The notes beneath the pieces are model-generated. The model saw only the letters and a list, made by a program, of their open reading frames with translations. It was not told where the DNA came from and did no database searches. The position numbers were made by a program, and so were the translations under genes. A DNA stretch of 64,000 nt, from contig NZ_QCYG01000004.1 of NCBI RefSeq assembly GCF_003072065.1, forward strand, positions 296,789-360,788, written 5' to 3'. Below are positions 33,751 through 64,000 of this stretch, piece after piece (position 1 is the stretch's first letter; every line of letters starts with the position of its first letter). Source of the DNA: Thalassorhabdomicrobium marinisediminis. GTDB taxonomy: Bacteria; Pseudomonadota; Alphaproteobacteria; Rhodobacterales; Rhodobacteraceae.

Positions 33751-35016
33751 ATGGCTGAGCGGCTTTTGACCGGCACACGGATCCGCAACAGGCGGCTGGA
33801 TCGCAAGCTGCGGCAGGTGGATGTGGCGGCGCGGGTCGGCATCTCCGGCTCATACCTCAACCTGATCGAGCACAACCGGCGCAGAATCGGCAGCACGCTG
33901 CTGGCGCGGCTGGCCGAGGTGCTTGAGGTGGATGTCGCAGCACTTGAGGATGACGCCGCCGCTGCGATCACCACGCCCCTGCGCGAAGCCGCGGCCGCCT
34001 TTCCGCAAAGCGGCATCGATGGCGCACAGGCCGAGGATGTCGTCGCGCGGTTTCCCGACTGGGCCGCGTTGATTGCCGCGCAGCATGCGCGGATCGCCCA
34101 ACTGACCGAACGGGTCGAGGCGCTGGGCAACCGGCTGACCCACGACACCCAGATCGCGGCTTCCCTGCACGAGGTGATCTCGACCGCCACGGCGATCCGC
34201 TCTACCGCGTCGATCCTCGTCGAAAGCCCGGATCTGGATGGCGACTGGCTGCGCCGGTTCCACGGCAACATCGACGGAGATTCCGCGCGGTTGGCCGAAA
34301 GCTCGCAAGCCCTGCTGGGGCTGCTGGACATGGACAGCGGCGCACCACAGGCCGAGACGACAGCCATGGAGCAGGCCGAGGCGCTGCTGGCGGCGCGCGG
34401 GTTCCATCTGCCCGGCGTTGAACGTAGTGAAGCCGAGGACTGGCCCGAAGCGTCGGACGGCGTGGTGGCGCAGATCCTTGCGCAGTGGACCGAGGGCTAC
34501 CGGCGCGACGCCACACGCCTGCCGCTTGCGACCTTTGTACCGGCGGCCCGGGCGCTGGCGTTCGATCCTGCGCGGCTGGCAGCGCGGTTCGATGTCCCGC
34601 TGGCCACGGTGTTGCGGCGTCTGGCGCAGTTGCCCGCGGCGGACGGAACCCCGCCCATGGGTCTCGCGTGCTGCGATGCGGCCGGGGTGGTGACGTTTCA
34701 GAAGCCGGTGCTGGACTTCCGGCTGCCCCGCTCGGGGGCGGCCTGTCCGCTCTGGCCCCTGTATCAGGCGCTGACCCAACCGGGCCGCGCGATCCGCGCC
34801 GTTGCCCGTCTGCCCGGCGCGGCACGAACCCCGTTCGAATGTTTCGCCATCGCCGGGCCGGTGGGGGCGGTGGGCTTCGACGCCGCCCCGCGCGTCGAGG
34901 CGGTGATGCTGGTGCGCCCCGCCCGCAGTGGCGCGCAGCCGCAGACCGTCGGCCCCGGTTGCCGCGTCTGCCTGGTTGAGGATTGCGCCAGCCGCCGCCA
35001 GCCCAGCGTCCTCTGA
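33751..35016 (+). CDS. Short-chain fatty acyl-CoA regulator (ScfR) family transcription factor
   Basis: This 421-residue regulator has an N-terminal XRE helix-turn-helix (RRLDRKLRQVDVAARVG with ISGSYLNLIEHNRRRI, residues 11-45), a central ScfR region, and a C-terminal cysteine motif GCRVCLVEDC. Known family members (RamB, PccR, MccR) sense acyl-CoAs and switch acetate or propionate genes. I start at ATG 33751 with GGGGGA upstream. It is divergent from the liv operon, near acsA, and upstream of the two-component operon, which makes it a good candidate for the local regulator. Confidence 0.88.
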   Translation: MAERLLTGTRIRNRRLDRKLRQVDVAARVGISGSYLNLIEHNRRRIGSTLLARLAEVLEVDVAALEDDAAAAITTPLREAAAAFPQSGIDGAQAEDVVARFPDWAALIAAQHARIAQLTERVEALGNRLTHDTQIAASLHEVISTATAIRSTASILVESPDLDGDWLRRFHGNIDGDSARLAESSQALLGLLDMDSGAPQAETTAMEQAEALLAARGFHLPGVERSEAEDWPEASDGVVAQILAQWTEGYRRDATRLPLATFVPAARALAFDPARLAARFDVPLATVLRRLAQLPAADGTPPMGLACCDAAGVVTFQKPVLDFRLPRSGAACPLWPLYQALTQPGRAIRAVARLPGAARTPFECFAIAGPVGAVGFDAAPRVEAVMLVRPARSGAQPQTVGPGCRVCLVEDCASRRQPSVL

Positions 35017-43760: not shown

Positions 43761-43836
43761 GCCCCTATAGCTCAGCTGGTAGAGCAACTGATTTGTAATC
43801 AGTAGGTCCGCGGTTCGAGTCCGTGTGGGGGCACCA
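43761..43836 (+). tRNA. tRNA-Thr(UGU)
   Basis: This 76-base sequence folds as a tRNA including a genome-encoded CCA. The acceptor stem pairs GCCCCTA with TGGGGGC. The D-loop carries AGCTCAGCTGGTAGAGC, the anticodon loop is TTTGTAA with anticodon TGT, and the T-arm is CGCGGTTCGAGTCCGTG. The anticodon reads ACA codons. It is the boundary between core genome and the island to its right, and tRNA 3' ends are typical attachment sites. Confidence 0.97.
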
Positions 43837-52509: not shown

Positions 52510-55500
52510 TCCAGAAACAGCAGCTCTAATCCGATCCACGCCAGAACTTGATGATCTGGATATTGAGGCATTACCAGATCGGCTCGCACGCGTATTTGCG
52601 GAAATTGTATCTGCCCGTGTGATGCTGCGCGAAGGCGACGCCGATCTTGCTTCGCTCAATGACACCACACGGTATGCACGCCGGCTGGCCCAAACCAACG
52701 AAGCTTTGGTGGCAATCGATCCTGATCGGGAAAACCGAGCTGCTGCAGGCTTTGTTGCGGCGAGCGCTTACCAGTTATTGTATCAAGCCCAAGCGCTCTC
52801 GGAACCCGAACGACCTGCTGCGTTTGTGACACCTGAAGGAATCAGCCCGGAAATCTCAGCAATGCTGCTTTTTCTGGTTGCTGAAGCATCGGCCGACGCG
52901 GCGGAGGTTGCCGCTGCCATGCGCATTCCAAGCGGTGACAGACTTCAATCCGAATTGATTCTTCATCTAATTATGTTGGCAAATGGCCAAGTTGGTCGGA
53001 TTCGACGGCACAAACGACCCCGACAAGCTGACCTTGTCACTGGTTCGGGGGGCGAACGCGCAAATGCTGCGCTTTACTATCGGATCTTGCGAGGCATTCG
53101 GGCACTCGCCTATGTGCTTCAGGGAACACGCATCAGAGGATTTGTGAATCCGATTGCTGTCTTCACTGAAGTCAAACAATTGGCTGCGCCCGGCGCAGAG
53201 GAGTTCGACGAAGGATCCCCCGACTGGGCAGTCGCGGTATTCCCAGGGCCGTTTCATTTGGCAAGTCTACTGATCGCAGCAGGATCGGCGCTAATTGGCG
53301 GTGCGGTCGTTAACTTGCCTCCTCCAGAGGGAGTGGACGGAGACCAGGGCTACTGCAATGGAAACGGTCGCTGAGACGCGACCATATCTTTGGCGCAATT
53401 ACAGAGACGCTGTTGAGCAAGGATATCTGGAAATTGGAACGTCATCGGCCATCGGTTTTCCAACCGGAGCCGGCAAGTCTACAACAGCCCAACTCAAGAT
53501 CCATGCAACACTGTTGTCAGGTCGAAAAGCGGTCTTTCTGGCCCCCACCCATGCCCTCGTGGACCAGACAACGCGGGACCTCCGCGTTGCCTTCCCACGG
53601 GCAACGGTGCGCGGAGAGCGCATCGACGAATTTGGATTTTCGAGTCAGAGAGAAGACCTACCCGACCTCATGGTTATGACGCCCGAGGCCTGCCTGCTTT
53701 CAAGCCACATAGAGCCAGAACGATTTGATGATGTCGGCCTTCTGATTTTCGACGAGTGCCATCTTATGCATGACAATACAGATGGGGACCGACGGGCGAT
53801 CGACGCAATGCTCTGTATCTTGGGCTTCACGCGTGTCGCACCTGATGCTGATATCGTACTCTTGTCCGCAATGTTGAGATTTACGGATGAACTCAGCGGT
53901 TGGCTTGAGGAGCTTACGGGTAGAAAATCTTTGCCTCTCGAGAATGCATGGAAACCCACCCGCCAACTTAGAGGATATGTTGTTTATGACGCCAAACGAC
54001 ACGCTAAGCTGGAAAAACTGCTAAGAGCCGAACGTGTAAAGAAGCCAAGGGAGGCGTTCCAGTCGCTGTAAAGCGTCAGCTCACTGCCACGCCAAAAGGG
54101 TTCTTCAGTGTCAAGCAAACGTGGGCGTCTCAAGTTCGGCGGGATTATACGCTGGTTCCGCTGCTTGATACCGCTCTTGAATTTTCAACCAACAAGTTCT
54201 GGAAGCTGACCCCCAACTCTGGGGTTGTCGCAGCGTCCATTGCTGTTGCAGCTGCGCAGGCCGGTTTGCGCACGCTTGTCTTTTCGCAGTCCACTCCAAA
54301 TGCGTTCTCAATCTCAGAAAAGGCACGCGAGGCGTTTGAGGATTGTGACGTCAAACTAACCGAAACTGAGCAGCGGTATTATGAAGTTGCTGTCGATGAA
54401 ATGGGGGGAGCAGACCAGCTCTACCTGACTCTCCAAAGCGGAAAGCTTGTGTCGCAGGCCGCCACACATCACGGCCAACTGCTTCCAGAGGAAAGGCAGC
54501 TGGCCGAAACACTTTATAGGCGCGATGAAGCGCTGTCGGCTCTCGCTGCAACCCCAACCCTCGGCCAGGGCATGAACCTGCCCGCAGATCTGGTGATCAT
54601 CGCAGAAGATAGCCAATACGACGTGGCATCGGGACGCAAAGACCTCTTGGAACCGGAAGATCTACTCAATGCCGCCGGGCGGGCTGGCGAAAGCGCGACA
54701 GGCATCGTCTTGGTCATCCCCGGAAAAGTTGTTCCGCTGGATGATGCCGAAAATAAGATTGGTGAGAGATGGACGCGTCTCCGCGCGATCTTTGGCCAAT
54801 CTGACCAGTGCTTAGTTTTGGACGATCCGTTTACTGCACTGATGGATCGCATACATGACAAAGCATGAGATATCGGCGATCTGGAACGGTATGTCGTCGC
54901 GCGGCTTGCAGAGACAGATCAAAGTGAAGACGGTGTCCTCGATGTGCGGCTTGGTCTATCGAGAAGCTTCGCCGCGTATCGCAAACGTCAGGATGCACAA
55001 GAAGATTGGGTGGATAGCAGGACAGCAGCCGCCCTTTCTCTCTTGACGGATGATAACGAAATCCTTCCCGTTGAATCCCTGTCTCTGCGCAACACCGCCT
55101 CTATGTTGGGTCTTCCGGAAGATGTCCTGAAGGACCTGTCTGATGCTCTTGTCGAGGAGGGGTTTCAGAGTCTTCAGACGGTTGGAGTATTGTGTGATTG
55201 GGTGTTCGAGTGGCTGGCTGCAACACGTGAACATTTGGCACGAGTGATCAAGCCTGACAGTTTGAAGTACCTGTTCGGAACGGACTTCAAAAAGCTTAAG
55301 GACGATGCTCAGCGCGCATCTTTTGCTCTTCCTAAATTGCAGGCAGCGTTGAAGCTGTGGATGAATGGCAAGCCTCTCAAGTCGATCCAAAAGGCCCTGT
55401 CTGACAAATCCCGAGACATTAAGCGCAGTACAAGTGCCCGAAAGTTCGTTATTCAGCTTATTCCGGATATCGCACATCTGATGGGAGTCCCTCTTCAGAT

Positions 55501-55802: not shown

Positions 55803-56206
55803 TAACGGACGATACAGCTTCAATGCGGCGAGAAGCACCTTCTTCGCCTCTTCAACGCCTTCGGTTATTTCTGGTGCTCTTTTCGAAGGGCCGCGTTGAC
55901 GAGAAGGTTGGACGTCTTCTCATTGCTGCCGAAGTCCTCGTCGTAGGGGCGAATCATCAGGACGCATTCCGGGTCGAGTTCAGTATCGTTCTCGTCGAGT
56001 ACCGACCGTTTCGTCGGCCGGTTTGGGAACATCCTGTCTGACGATTTCTTCCTGTCGGCAATGTCCTGAAACGTTTTCGCGAGCGATGATTTCATCGCCC
56101 CGTTTGGTGCGTATAGCGCAGCCGCATTACATTTCTTGAAGTCGAACGCGTGCTCCAACTTCCGGATTCCGTAACAATACTCTAGATCCAAGTTTAATGA
56201 TTGCAT
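55751..56206 (-). pseudogene. Truncated AAA-family ATPase (N-terminal fragment)
   Basis: The first 113 residues (from ATG 56206) match the start of a defence-type AAA ATPase: YGIRKLEHAFDF, a Walker A variant APNGAMKSSLAKTF, RMFPNRPTKRSV, and VLMIRPYDEDFGSNEK. After KEHQ a frameshift near 55865 joins ITEGVEEAKKVLLAALKL in another frame for about 35 residues, and then the similarity ends at about 55751. The rest of the protein, probably 500 or more residues, is absent. Confidence 0.65.
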
Positions 56207-56656: not shown

Positions 56657-58183
56657 TCAGCCCCTCTCAACCTTTTTCCACGAGCAGCCGGACACAATGC
56701 CCCAATTGCCTGCTGCGTTCGGGCGGCGCCAGCGCGGCTTATCCATCCGGTTCAACGCCTCGAGGGCCGCGTCGAAGCTGTCATGTTTTTCCTCGGCTCC
56801 TTTCGCCCCGACAGTAAAGTATCCCCGTCTCGCAAGGCCAGGATTAAAAGTGGTGCCATCAGCCGCAACGGGAACGCGCACTGCGCCCCCTTCGGCCTGA
56901 TTATCAGCTCGTGGCCTGGAGGAGATCGGCGTGCGGATGTGAGAGGCCGATACGACTGCGCGAAGCGCATCAGGACGGATGGCGCTGCCGGGGGTGTTTG
57001 TCATAGCGAAATCGCTATCATCGAGCACATCGTCCTCAGCGGCTTCTGGCTGCGGCATCCGCTTGAGCGGCGTGCAACGTTCGGCCAACAGAACGACCTC
57101 GGCCGCGGCGCGGGCGTCCTCGCCTGCGTCGTGATGCTCGAACCGAAGACCAAGATGCGACTTGAGCGATGCGAGGCCATGCCCACCGTTGCCCTTGAGT
57201 TCGGGCCAAGCCGCACGCGCCGTGCTGACACTGTTCAGCCAGTTCCACTGCGGCTCGGTTCGGGCGCGGCAGTCGCAGGCGGCACGGATCGCGCTCCGGT
57301 CGAAACCGGAATGCTGGTAGATGGTGCTGCCCTGCAACATCCCGTCGAGCGCGTCGATCACTGCATCGATGGTAGGAGCGCCATTCACCATGGCATTGGT
57401 GATCCCATGCAAGTAGCTGAACTGCCAGGAGTCGGTCCGGGGGTCGACCAGCGTCACCCAGGTTTCGATGCTATCGTCGGGACGCACGCAAGCGACGCCC
57501 ACCTGACAGATGCTTCCACGGTCATTGTTGGCCGTCTCGACATCCAACGCAAAGAAGCGAAACGGACCCTTCGGGAGAGGCGGAAGGCTAATCTGTCCCG
57601 ACGTGGTCTCGCGCGCGCCCTGCCTGGCGGACGCCCCCCCAAGGTGGCGGTCACGCTGACGACCGATTGCGGCACGCTGGACAGGCGAGAGCCGCAACTC
57701 TTCGATAACCGCGTCAACCAACGCCACAGGCTCATCATAGGCATCCATGCCCCGCCGGTTCCACGCCACCATATCAGAGGGCGCAAGGGCAATGACCCGT
57801 GCTTCGAGCCCGGGGATATCGGCATCGTTTGGCAGTTCCACCCACGTACAGCCGCAATGGCGTGCGATGAACGCGTTGCGCAGAGCTTTTGCAACGTCGC
57901 CGTCAGACTTCGTGGCTGGGTCCTTGCGCTGGCGCCACATGCGCCCGGTGTTATACATTCGAGAGAAGTAATGGCTGGTGCTTTCCGACCCGGCGCGGTG
58001 GCGCTGATGGATGCGCTTGTAGAAAGTCTCAGCTGCAGACGACGTTGAGCCGATGTAGCGGAAGGTGCCCGTGTGATCGAACAGGCCGTAGATGCCGCGG
58101 GCATCGCGCGGGGCATCGGAGGTCGGACGGGGCGTCGCTCTCATCAGAAGGTTGAGGATTTCGGTGGCGGTGTGAATAGTCAT
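56657..58183 (-). CDS. GIY-YIG nuclease fused to DEDDh exonuclease and a shared C-terminal domain
   Basis: This 508-residue protein has three parts. Residues 25-150 are a GIY-YIG nuclease-like domain: GIY at 30-32, YIG at 43-45, the arginine R57, the metal-binding glutamate E127 in LEARVIAL, and N142. Residues 205-370 are a DnaQ-type DEDDh exonuclease: D214 and E216 in FALDVETAN, D295 in HSGFDR, and H351/D356 in HDAGED. The last 75 residues (PRWRRPN and WGIVSG motifs) match the end of the next protein. I start at ATG 58183. It is the last gene of a three-gene operon. Both nuclease sites look intact, so activity is likely; the role is inferred. Confidence 0.85.
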   Translation of the reverse strand: MTIHTATEILNLLMRATPRPTSDAPRDARGIYGLFDHTGTFRYIGSTSSAAETFYKRIHQRHRAGSESTSHYFSRMYNTGRMWRQRKDPATKSDGDVAKALRNAFIARHCGCTWVELPNDADIPGLEARVIALAPSDMVAWNRRGMDAYDEPVALVDAVIEELRLSPVQRAAIGRQRDRHLGGASARQGARETTSGQISLPPLPKGPFRFFALDVETANNDRGSICQVGVACVRPDDSIETWVTLVDPRTDSWQFSYLHGITNAMVNGAPTIDAVIDALDGMLQGSTIYQHSGFDRSAIRAACDCRARTEPQWNWLNSVSTARAAWPELKGNGGHGLASLKSHLGLRFEHHDAGEDARAAAEVVLLAERCTPLKRMPQPEAAEDDVLDDSDFAMTNTPGSAIRPDALRAVVSASHIRTPISSRPRADNQAEGGAVRVPVAADGTTFNPGLARRGYFTVGAKGAEEKHDSFDAALEALNRMDKPRWRRPNAAGNWGIVSGCSWKKVERG

Positions 58184-58191
58184 GTCTGCTC

Positions 58192-59133
58192 TTACCCCTT
58201 CTCGATACGCTGCCAAGACACGCCGCTGACGATGCCCCACAGACCCCTTTCATTCGGCCGACGCCAGCGAGGCACCGACATGGCATTCAACCGCGCGAGG
58301 GCGTTTGCGAAGTCCGGGATATCCTCCTCGCTGCCCTTTGCGCCGATGCGGTATGCCCCGTTGCGCTGAAGATCCGGTGTGAACATCGAGCCGTCCCGCG
58401 CCACAGGCACGAAAATCATGCGGTCGGACGGGATGGCCGGACACTCTTCGTCGCTATCCTCACCGACGTCCTCCTGCTGCCAGATCGAAGCCAGAAATCT
58501 CTTCTTCTTCTGCAGCCAAGCTGCGGCGCTCAAGGCGACGACCCCGCCGTTGGGTCCGCGCTCAAGCGCGTTGTCACTACCCGAGAGCAGGTTGCGCACA
58601 CGCCCCTCGCTGATGCCTCCGAGAATGGACATGGAATGCGTATCAATCTCGCCGACACCGGTATCAATGGCGTACCGTGACGCGGCGAGGTTGGCAATGC
58701 GGGTGAAGACGATGTCAGACGCACTTTTTGAGAAATCCGAGAGCTCGGCCACCAACTTTGCCAACCATCCCGTACGCTCGCCCAGAGGAATGTCCTCTGG
58801 CACGATGCCATACAAACCGTACTGCAGGGCAAAATCGAGGCGGCGCGCGATTGGCAAGGCATCGGTAAGGGCAAGTGCGTTGTTTTCTAAGGCTATGCGC
58901 CAAGTCCGCGCCGAGCCGCCGCCGATCTGGATTGCTGGCTCCATCAACTGCAGCAAGGGGGCCGCGGCAGGTTCGGGGCCGAACAGTCCTTCGACATGTT
59001 CGAGGGCAGTCGTCACGAGATCTCCCATCGGCGCGGCATAGTCCCAGTAGTGAGGGTCATCGGCCTGCCCAAACCCATGGTAGTTTTCGTGATAGGCCTC
59101 GCGGCGTTCGGCGGCGGTCATTAACTCGGTCAT
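58192..59133 (-). CDS. HTH-containing partner sharing the C-terminal WRRPN domain
   Basis: This 313-residue protein has an unassigned helical N-terminal part and a helix-turn-helix-like stretch near residues 168-215 (SILGGISEGRVRNLLS, then VALSAAAWLQKKKRFLA). Its C-terminal 75 residues (FVPVARDGSMFTPDLQR, the GAKGSEE turn, PRWRRPN and WGIVSG) are very similar to the last 75 of the downstream nuclease. The ATG at 59133 has AAAGGAAA upstream. It lies 8 bases before the nuclease start and 11 bases after the small protein. I infer a DNA- or partner-binding role. Confidence 0.75.
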   Translation of the reverse strand: MTELMTAAERREAYHENYHGFGQADDPHYWDYAAPMGDLVTTALEHVEGLFGPEPAAAPLLQLMEPAIQIGGGSARTWRIALENNALALTDALPIARRLDFALQYGLYGIVPEDIPLGERTGWLAKLVAELSDFSKSASDIVFTRIANLAASRYAIDTGVGEIDTHSMSILGGISEGRVRNLLSGSDNALERGPNGGVVALSAAAWLQKKKRFLASIWQQEDVGEDSDEECPAIPSDRMIFVPVARDGSMFTPDLQRNGAYRIGAKGSEEDIPDFANALARLNAMSVPRWRRPNERGLWGIVSGVSWQRIEKG

Positions 59134-59144
59134 TGACTTTCCTT

Positions 59145-59330
59145 TCAGCGGTGCAGGCGGCGTATTTCGCTGCGTACGTTGACAAGATTGCGATAGTCGG
59201 ACGGCGTGCAAGCTGCTGTAACAGTTCCTGCGTCGAACACGAGTTGGCAGTGCTTGCCTCCCATTTCGACCCGTAAGAGTTCAAACCCTTCGCTCCGGCA
59301 CATATTGCGGTATTCTCTAACGCTGCGCAT
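59145..59330 (-). CDS. HicA-like small protein
   Basis: This 61-residue protein starts the operon. The sequence RSEGFELLRVEMGGKHCQLV then TPSDYRNLVNVRSEIRRL fits a small family seen in phages and plasmids with a dsRBD-like (HicA-type) fold, including the conserved Lys-His pair and the TPSD turn. The catalytic histidine of true HicA toxins corresponds at best to that His. No hicB antitoxin gene is adjacent. The ATG at 59330 has GAGAGG upstream. Confidence 0.6.
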   Translation of the reverse strand: MRSVREYRNMCRSEGFELLRVEMGGKHCQLVFDAGTVTAACTPSDYRNLVNVRSEIRRLHR

Positions 59331-59407
59331 GCTTACAACCTCTCAACAGTCACGATGTAACGTTTATGCCTTATGGGTAAGGCGGACCGCGAAGCTCGTC
59401 AATAGAT

Positions 59408-63510: not shown

Positions 63511-64000
63511 CGTTCGCCATTGGCCTCGAACCGATGGCGGCTCAATGGCTCACCCTAAATCTCGGGACGCCGGGGGGCCATAGAAATGCTGCGTCTCAAT
63601 CTCGAGCCGCTCGGGCTTCATGTTTCGTTCGACCGCGGCACGCTCGATTGACCCGGTGGCCGGCGACGTTGGCGCAGGCGGGGCACTGGCCCCCCTGCGT
63701 TCGGACGCTCACGGCCAGCCGAACCCGGTGGACGAGGTAAATATGTCAATGTGATCGCGCGTCTTCGCGCCGTATCGCCTGCGCCAGCACCTTTGGTCCG
63801 GCCAACAGATCAGACTCCCGCATGCCCTTGTCAAAGGCATAGCTTATCCGAGCAGTGTCCCAACAGTTGGTGTAATTTCCGCCGGTAGCGCGGGCTGAGG
63901 GGAGCCTTCGCATAGCGAAGCGGGGCCCGTGCGGGCCGCTTGGCGGCCATGGTTGTTCTTCGGCTAAGGTTTGGTTTGCGGACCTAACTTTGACCGAGGA
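63511..64000. other. No supported gene (window end)
   Basis: About 490 bases to the end of the window. Two adjacent hairpin-like inverted repeats occur at 63906-63920 and 63924-63937 (GGCCCG/CGGGCC). No gene is supported, and the remaining edge sequence is non-coding as far as I can see. Confidence 0.4.

Follow-up and report, generated by a model that had tools for sequence, protein, structure and literature searches.

The window analysed here is a stretch of 64,000 nucleotides from Thalassorhabdomicrobium marinisediminis. At 56657-59330 its minus strand carries three closely spaced genes in the order P3-P2-P1, which encode a HicA-like protein of 61 residues (P3, 59145..59330), a protein of 313 residues with a predicted winged helix (P2, 58192..59133), and a protein of 508 residues that joins a GIY-YIG to a DEDDh nuclease domain (P1, 56657..58183). 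The genes are separated by 11 bases (P3/P2) and 8 bases (P2/P1), and purine-rich stretches that by eye resemble ribosome-binding sites precede the starts of P3 and P2. The C-terminal 74 residues are common to P1 and P2 with 55% identity; the shared domain spans residues 434-508 of P1 (56660..56884) and 238-313 of P2 (58195..58422), both on the minus strand. A previous sequence-only reading had described three open reading frames (ORFs) with these gaps, both nuclease domains and a shared C-terminus, and all of these features were re-found.

P1 appears to be a double nuclease. Its DEDDh exonuclease domain (residues 206-372; 57068..57568, minus strand) is identified both by the RNase_T profile in a Pfam search (6.7e-12) and by its exonuclease fold, and the DEDDh residues D214, E216, D295, H351, and D356 are invariant in 51/51 aligned homologs. 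The GIY-YIG-like domain (residues 1-182; 57638..58183, minus strand) contains all elements of the catalytic motif (GIY, YIG, R, E, N). In the same 51 homologs, G30, Y32, Y43, G45, R57, H59, and N142 are invariant and E127 is found in 49, and a profile of this domain had no match in PDB. Residues 372-432, which precede the shared C-terminal domain, were modelled with very low confidence. Both nuclease domains are kept in all of the 120 P1 homologs listed out of 637. The exonuclease domain by itself is more common than P1: 37 genomes have a P1 match at 1e-30, and the majority of them match in this part only. P1 is broken into pieces in L004 (a Ruegeria sp. TM1040 plasmid), L014 (Marimonas), and L081 (a Marivita metagenome-assembled genome, MAG), a pattern expected of a dispensable gene. 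In another locus (L145:4626-7379), P1 forms an in-frame fusion with a preceding ATP-binding protein of phage-like appearance, and neither P2 nor P3 is present.

Nothing in Pfam, NCBIfam, or PADLOC matched P2, even at E-values up to 10. Its structure model (pLDDT 93.4) has a helical N-terminal domain and a predicted winged helix. For P3, the HicA-like model of PADLOC matches the protein and its 18 aligned relatives (19/19), which all share an invariant H27; no match for P3 was found in PDB.

Named genomes were scanned with a P2 profile, which resulted in 71 loci. Among them, 31 loci, most of them labelled as Rhodobacterales, form a close-P2 set (L011-L038, L075, L077, and L080). P3-P2-P1 lie on one strand in 21 of the 31, including L014, in which P1 is split over two ORFs; this set is anchored on P2 and is therefore biased. 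Five other loci have P2-P1 without a clear P3 (some at a contig end), and one has a lone P2 piece. A sample anchored on P1 was also drawn, in which 295 genomes of the family and 390 of the order yielded 16 genomes that contain the GIY part of P1 (in one of them, G420, the gene is broken after this part). P3 and P2 lie directly upstream of P1 in nine of the 16, the window included, although in one of the nine P3 was matched over 46/61 residues. A divergent P2-like helix-turn-helix (HTH) protein is found upstream of P1 in two more and a P2 remnant in one. The expectation of the sequence-only reading that the genes are kept together is thus borne out in both samples. In the family draw, P2 was matched at 1e-5 in 11/295 genomes (some matches being partial), P3 at 1e-3 in 5/295, and both P1 domains in 7/295. 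As judged from these sequences, the operon is conserved but patchily distributed. In two loci (L099:4162-5061 and L141:4373-5341), P1 is preceded by a different HTH protein, which contains a P2-like HTH stretch without the shared C-terminal domain; over their matching stretch, these two HTH proteins share 31% identity. Besides, the operon and its neighbors in L020, labelled as an Exiguobacterium profundum MAG, match Paracoccus-type loci; a wrong label or a mixed assembly may explain this.

Distant relatives of P2 are accompanied by other genes. In a set of 27 distant-P2 loci (L005-L007, L039-L055, L057-L059, L064, L065, L068, and L070), the genes that follow P2 include one of the UDG superfamily in 15 loci (split in one of them and cut short in another), one for an ASCH-like protein in three (L054, L057, and L058), one of GIY-YIG type in three (L044 and L045, which resemble P1, and L006, assigned by its RefSeq name only and unmatched in Pfam), and a member of another family in one (L007); nothing was recognized in the remaining five. 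With the Pfam UDG models, four of the seven proteins tested were above the cut-off and three just below to below it, and no PDB match was obtained for the UDG-superfamily proteins of these sister operons. The Pfam ASCH model exceeded its cut-off in one of two proteins tested, and L057 was judged by likeness. In addition, a small gene resembling four seeds is present in 14/27 distant loci, three of these being the seeds' own loci (on plasmids) and a fourth L039. A P2 relative, a small DUF4258-like gene, and a UDG-superfamily gene stand in a row in L039, L041, L042, L048-L052, and L055. P2 therefore appears to be the constant part of these operons, beside which the effector gene is exchanged.

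The shared C-terminal domain is modular. Of the 120 listed P1 homologs, 35 carry the shared domain at their end and 69 a different one, whereas 12 are short and four are of other kinds; a third type of P1 C-terminus is found in two named loci (L018 and L019). In the loci examined, P3-P2-P1 is kept with the alternative P1 ends. In a phylogeny of the P1 core, built by a quick method and with long branches flagged, the C-terminus was swapped about five times, at least three of the swaps being forced by well-supported branches. A tree of the domain itself (75 columns, with many forks unresolved and one truncated P2 counted as stand-alone) places 33 of 38 P1 copies in one supported set with three other rows; the P2 of the window groups apart from these, in a set that comprises 76 P2 rows. 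The domain also occurs as a stand-alone ORF of 80-111 residues in 11 loci of other Proteobacteria, and fused with an ASCH-like domain in L060, L061, and L063; for L063, the one compared with Pfam, the score was 20.7 bits, under the cut-off of 21.2. Moreover, it forms the second half of an XRE protein of E. coli (L008, L150, L151, and L152), at least 80% of whose gene is held by 776/5426 E. coli genomes. At the three E. coli sites viewed, the XRE gene lies in islands with integrases or recombinases, next to an AbiJ-type gene at two sites (the same island) and to Zorya genes at one.

Comparison with a same-genus genome revealed that the DNA around the operon is strain-specific. Between positions 34118 and 43838, parts of the window align in order with that genome at 67-73% identity, and the alignment ends at a tRNA-Thr gene (43761..43836, plus strand). 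From the tRNA gene to position 64000, operon included, only one 44-bp match was found there, and the strain-specific stretch reaches at least to the window end. A search for P1 at 1e-90 gave no match in any of the six same-genus genomes listed. The G+C content is 0.54-0.64 at 44-51 kb and 0.52-0.58 over most of 51-64 kb, and it rises to 0.61-0.63 at 57-59 kb, across P1 and P2; owing to this unevenness, composition alone is no island marker. Adjoining the operon, the stretches 53295-54868 and 55865-56206 contain remnants of other defence genes: two ORFs with piecewise matches to HamB helicase models, and a truncated ORF whose match to PDC-S46 is limited to the start of that model.

Neighbors of the operon in its relatives are also rich in defence genes. 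We collected 229 ORFs within 5.5 kb of up to 32 loci, together with 256 ORFs that served as controls (20 stretches in seven genomes), and scanned 140 random ORFs (up to 900 residues) from each set against PADLOC. At 1e-15, the neighbor ORFs matched 91 families and the controls two; these are not 91 genes, since one protein may match several families, and the two sets were unmatched by genome, their ORFs coming from a crude codon-position score. The 25 neighbor families listed represent at least eight kinds, including an oligonucleotide cyclase, a phospholipase effector, E1-E2, Cas1e, Cas7e, a type II restriction endonuclease, a DRT-associated gene, AbiEi, MzaB, and Orf5. Furthermore, Phage_integrase matches three neighbor ORFs and HTH_17 two. 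The setting proposed before, an island beside broken defence genes, is therefore supported by the strain-specific region, the HamB and PDC-S46 pieces, and the defence-rich surroundings of relatives.

Upstream of P3, the window has one CGTGA element (59350..59354, minus strand) and a TTGAC, possibly a -35 element (59398..59402, minus strand), which is found at a similar position in many relatives. The hexamer CGTGAA occurs in 19/26 upstream regions, many of which are near copies of each other, against a maximum of nine in single-base shuffles. In seven non-redundant regions, CGTGA/TCACG, a motif picked from the same data, is present in all seven, with 11 sites against a mean of 1.8 and a maximum of eight in 300 dinucleotide shuffles. 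These sites often flank TTGAC, and a scan for the sigma-70 consensus upstream of the operon found nothing. We regard CGTGA as a candidate operator for P2.

Taking these data together, we see an even chance that the operon is an anti-phage or anti-plasmid system, with a double nuclease that would first cleave invading DNA and then break it down. P2 is retained in every version and would serve as the hub: through its winged helix it would repress the operon at the CGTGA sites, and it would release or recruit the effector once an invader is sensed. Within P1, DNA would be nicked or cut by the GIY-YIG domain and degraded 3'-5' by the DEDDh domain, starting at the break, and the target would be read by the exchangeable C-terminus; cutting followed by trimming in a single chain is our inference. 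P3 would supply an RNA-directed arm. A HicA mRNA interferase system has been validated in defence, according to the available part of one report (PMC13092281). The most likely target, by analogy, would be DNA with unusual or modified bases, because no methyltransferase is among the conserved operon genes of the close-P2, distant-P2, and P1-anchored loci and because UDG-superfamily and ASCH-like proteins stand beside P2 in the sister operons. In the accessible text of two reports, Brig1 and Brig3 are UDG-superfamily proteins that remove modified phage bases (PMC11078745; PMC13160076). Since Roseobacter phages include deoxyuridine-DNA phages, as stated in the available part of PMC12697855, a direct test of such a target is within reach.

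Several observations weigh against this interpretation. The N-terminal domain of P1 is below the Pfam GIY-YIG cut-off (14.6 versus 22.6 bits); a 37% identical protein that RefSeq names as GIY-YIG nuclease family is likewise below it (20.4 bits). Pfam HicA matches none of P3 and its aligned relatives (0/19). For the small genes of the sister operons, Pfam DUF4258, which is placed in the RelE/ParE superfamily in the part of PMC11980606 available, is under the cut-off for three (best E=0.0055) and gives no match for three more. P3-P2 occurs without P1 in 4/31 close-P2 loci, and neither P2 nor P3 lies beside P1 in 4/16 P1-bearing genomes, so parts of the operon can separate. The lost synteny, seen against one genome, could also result from rearrangement. 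An unbiased best-hexamer test on the seven non-redundant upstream regions gave nothing above shuffles. The limits stated with the PADLOC comparison, the choice of CGTGA from the data in which it was counted, and the derivation of the target by analogy count on the same side.

A broader proposal, which we put forward tentatively, is that P2 defines an undescribed plug-in class of immunity in Alphaproteobacteria and Xanthomonadales-type bacteria, in which a constant winged-helix hub and a small RNase-fold partner would be combined with an exchangeable effector that attacks DNA (GIY-YIG + DEDDh nuclease, UDG-type glycosylase, or ASCH reader), the nuclease having swappable ends for reading its target, against modified-DNA phages. 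If true, one hub would link nucleases and DNA glycosylases, two separately studied attacks on invading DNA, and would show effector exchange behind a constant sensor. It would also offer a working idea for the small domain within the E. coli XRE protein.

Among the alternatives, an abortive system of toxin-antitoxin type, in which P3 and P1 would attack host nucleic acids and P2 would be an antitoxin and repressor released on infection, is unlikely. It would account for a HicA-like P3 with an invariant histidine, for a gene of DNA-binding type only 11 bases after it, and for the candidate operators upstream; HicA genes are also often found in defence islands, as described in the available part of PMC10865869. 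However, P2 is no HicB: besides its lack of Pfam and NCBIfam matches, its modelled N-terminal domain is helical and not RNase-H-like. Furthermore, the four P1 genes without P2 have outwardly intact frames, which speaks against P2 as an essential antitoxin if P1 harmed the host.

There is a small chance that the operon serves mobile elements, as cargo or in their maintenance (competition between elements, cutting of a homing-like kind, or element regulation), instead of host defence. The recurrence of integrase and excisionase-like genes nearby, a locus on a contig listed as viral by IMG/VR (L082), the in-frame fusion of P1 to a phage-like-looking gene in L145, and the strain-specific location all fit such a role, whereas defence genes dominate the PADLOC matches of the neighbors in comparison with controls, and neither a second nuclease domain nor a UDG or ASCH replacement is expected for homing.

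The sequence-only reading had gone further and proposed that the common tag unites P1 and P2 in one complex on one target. While the parts of that interpretation concerning gene order and a defence-rich, strain-specific setting stood up, this part was weakened, and in full it now seems improbable. The 55% identity over 74 residues in the window operon and the domain on 35 of the 120 listed P1 homologs agree with it, but the 69 that carry another domain do not; the P1 and P2 copies evolve apart, and elsewhere the domain stands alone or in XRE proteins. Of the two outcomes that this reading had named as refuting it, a domain of many contexts was observed, and a failure of the genes to stay together was not. 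The domain accompanies defence islands and is by itself no argument for a P1-P2 complex.

A DNA-repair operon akin to exonuclease + UvrC-like GIY-YIG proteins of the PRK07883 type is very improbable. The match of the exonuclease part to NF005905 (E=5.6e-16) speaks for it; against it, the match is confined to this part and reaches 58.2 bits with a cut-off of 508, the domain order is reversed relative to that family, and both domains occur sparsely (7/295 family genomes).

We also compared the operon with known systems. In PADLOC-DB 2.0.0, a catalogued system was rejected, as P2 is unmatched, P1 is matched by its exonuclease only, and P3 is only HicA-like; the models for DEDDh (CRISPR-associated), PDC-S48, and the CBASS Cap18 exonuclease all match the exonuclease part of P1 alone. 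Among the literature matches listed, which covered few subscription papers, no description of the operon was found. The PRK07883 family likewise has an exonuclease and a GIY-YIG part in one chain, in the reverse order of P1; it differs in its neighbors and in the limited extent of the match. HicAB modules resemble the operon in their small HicA-like first gene, second gene of DNA-binding type, and close spacing, and differ in that P2 is not HicB and the third gene encodes a double nuclease. A HicAB module was rejected, P2 having no HicB match and no partial RNase H in its model. GIY-YIG does not occur in the main text, as available, of a study of 14 HicA contexts (PMC10865869). With type IV restriction, as judged from sequence, the operon shares a predicted DNA nuclease, an exchangeable end domain, and the lack of a methyltransferase, but a Pfam search found no known modified-base reader in P1, and we know of no counterpart of P2 or P3 in such systems. 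Brig1 and Brig3 are similar in the UDG-superfamily proteins that adjoin P2 in the distant loci, likened to Brig at the level of the superfamily, and in the defence-island setting; the effector in the window is a nuclease, not a glycosylase. In Brig operons the partner is ADP-ribosyl-glycohydrolase-like or a glucosyl hydrolase, and the accessible text does not mention P2 (PMC11078745; PMC13160076). Overall, we place the operon with defence-island nuclease systems, and there is a real chance that the P2 family represents a new class.
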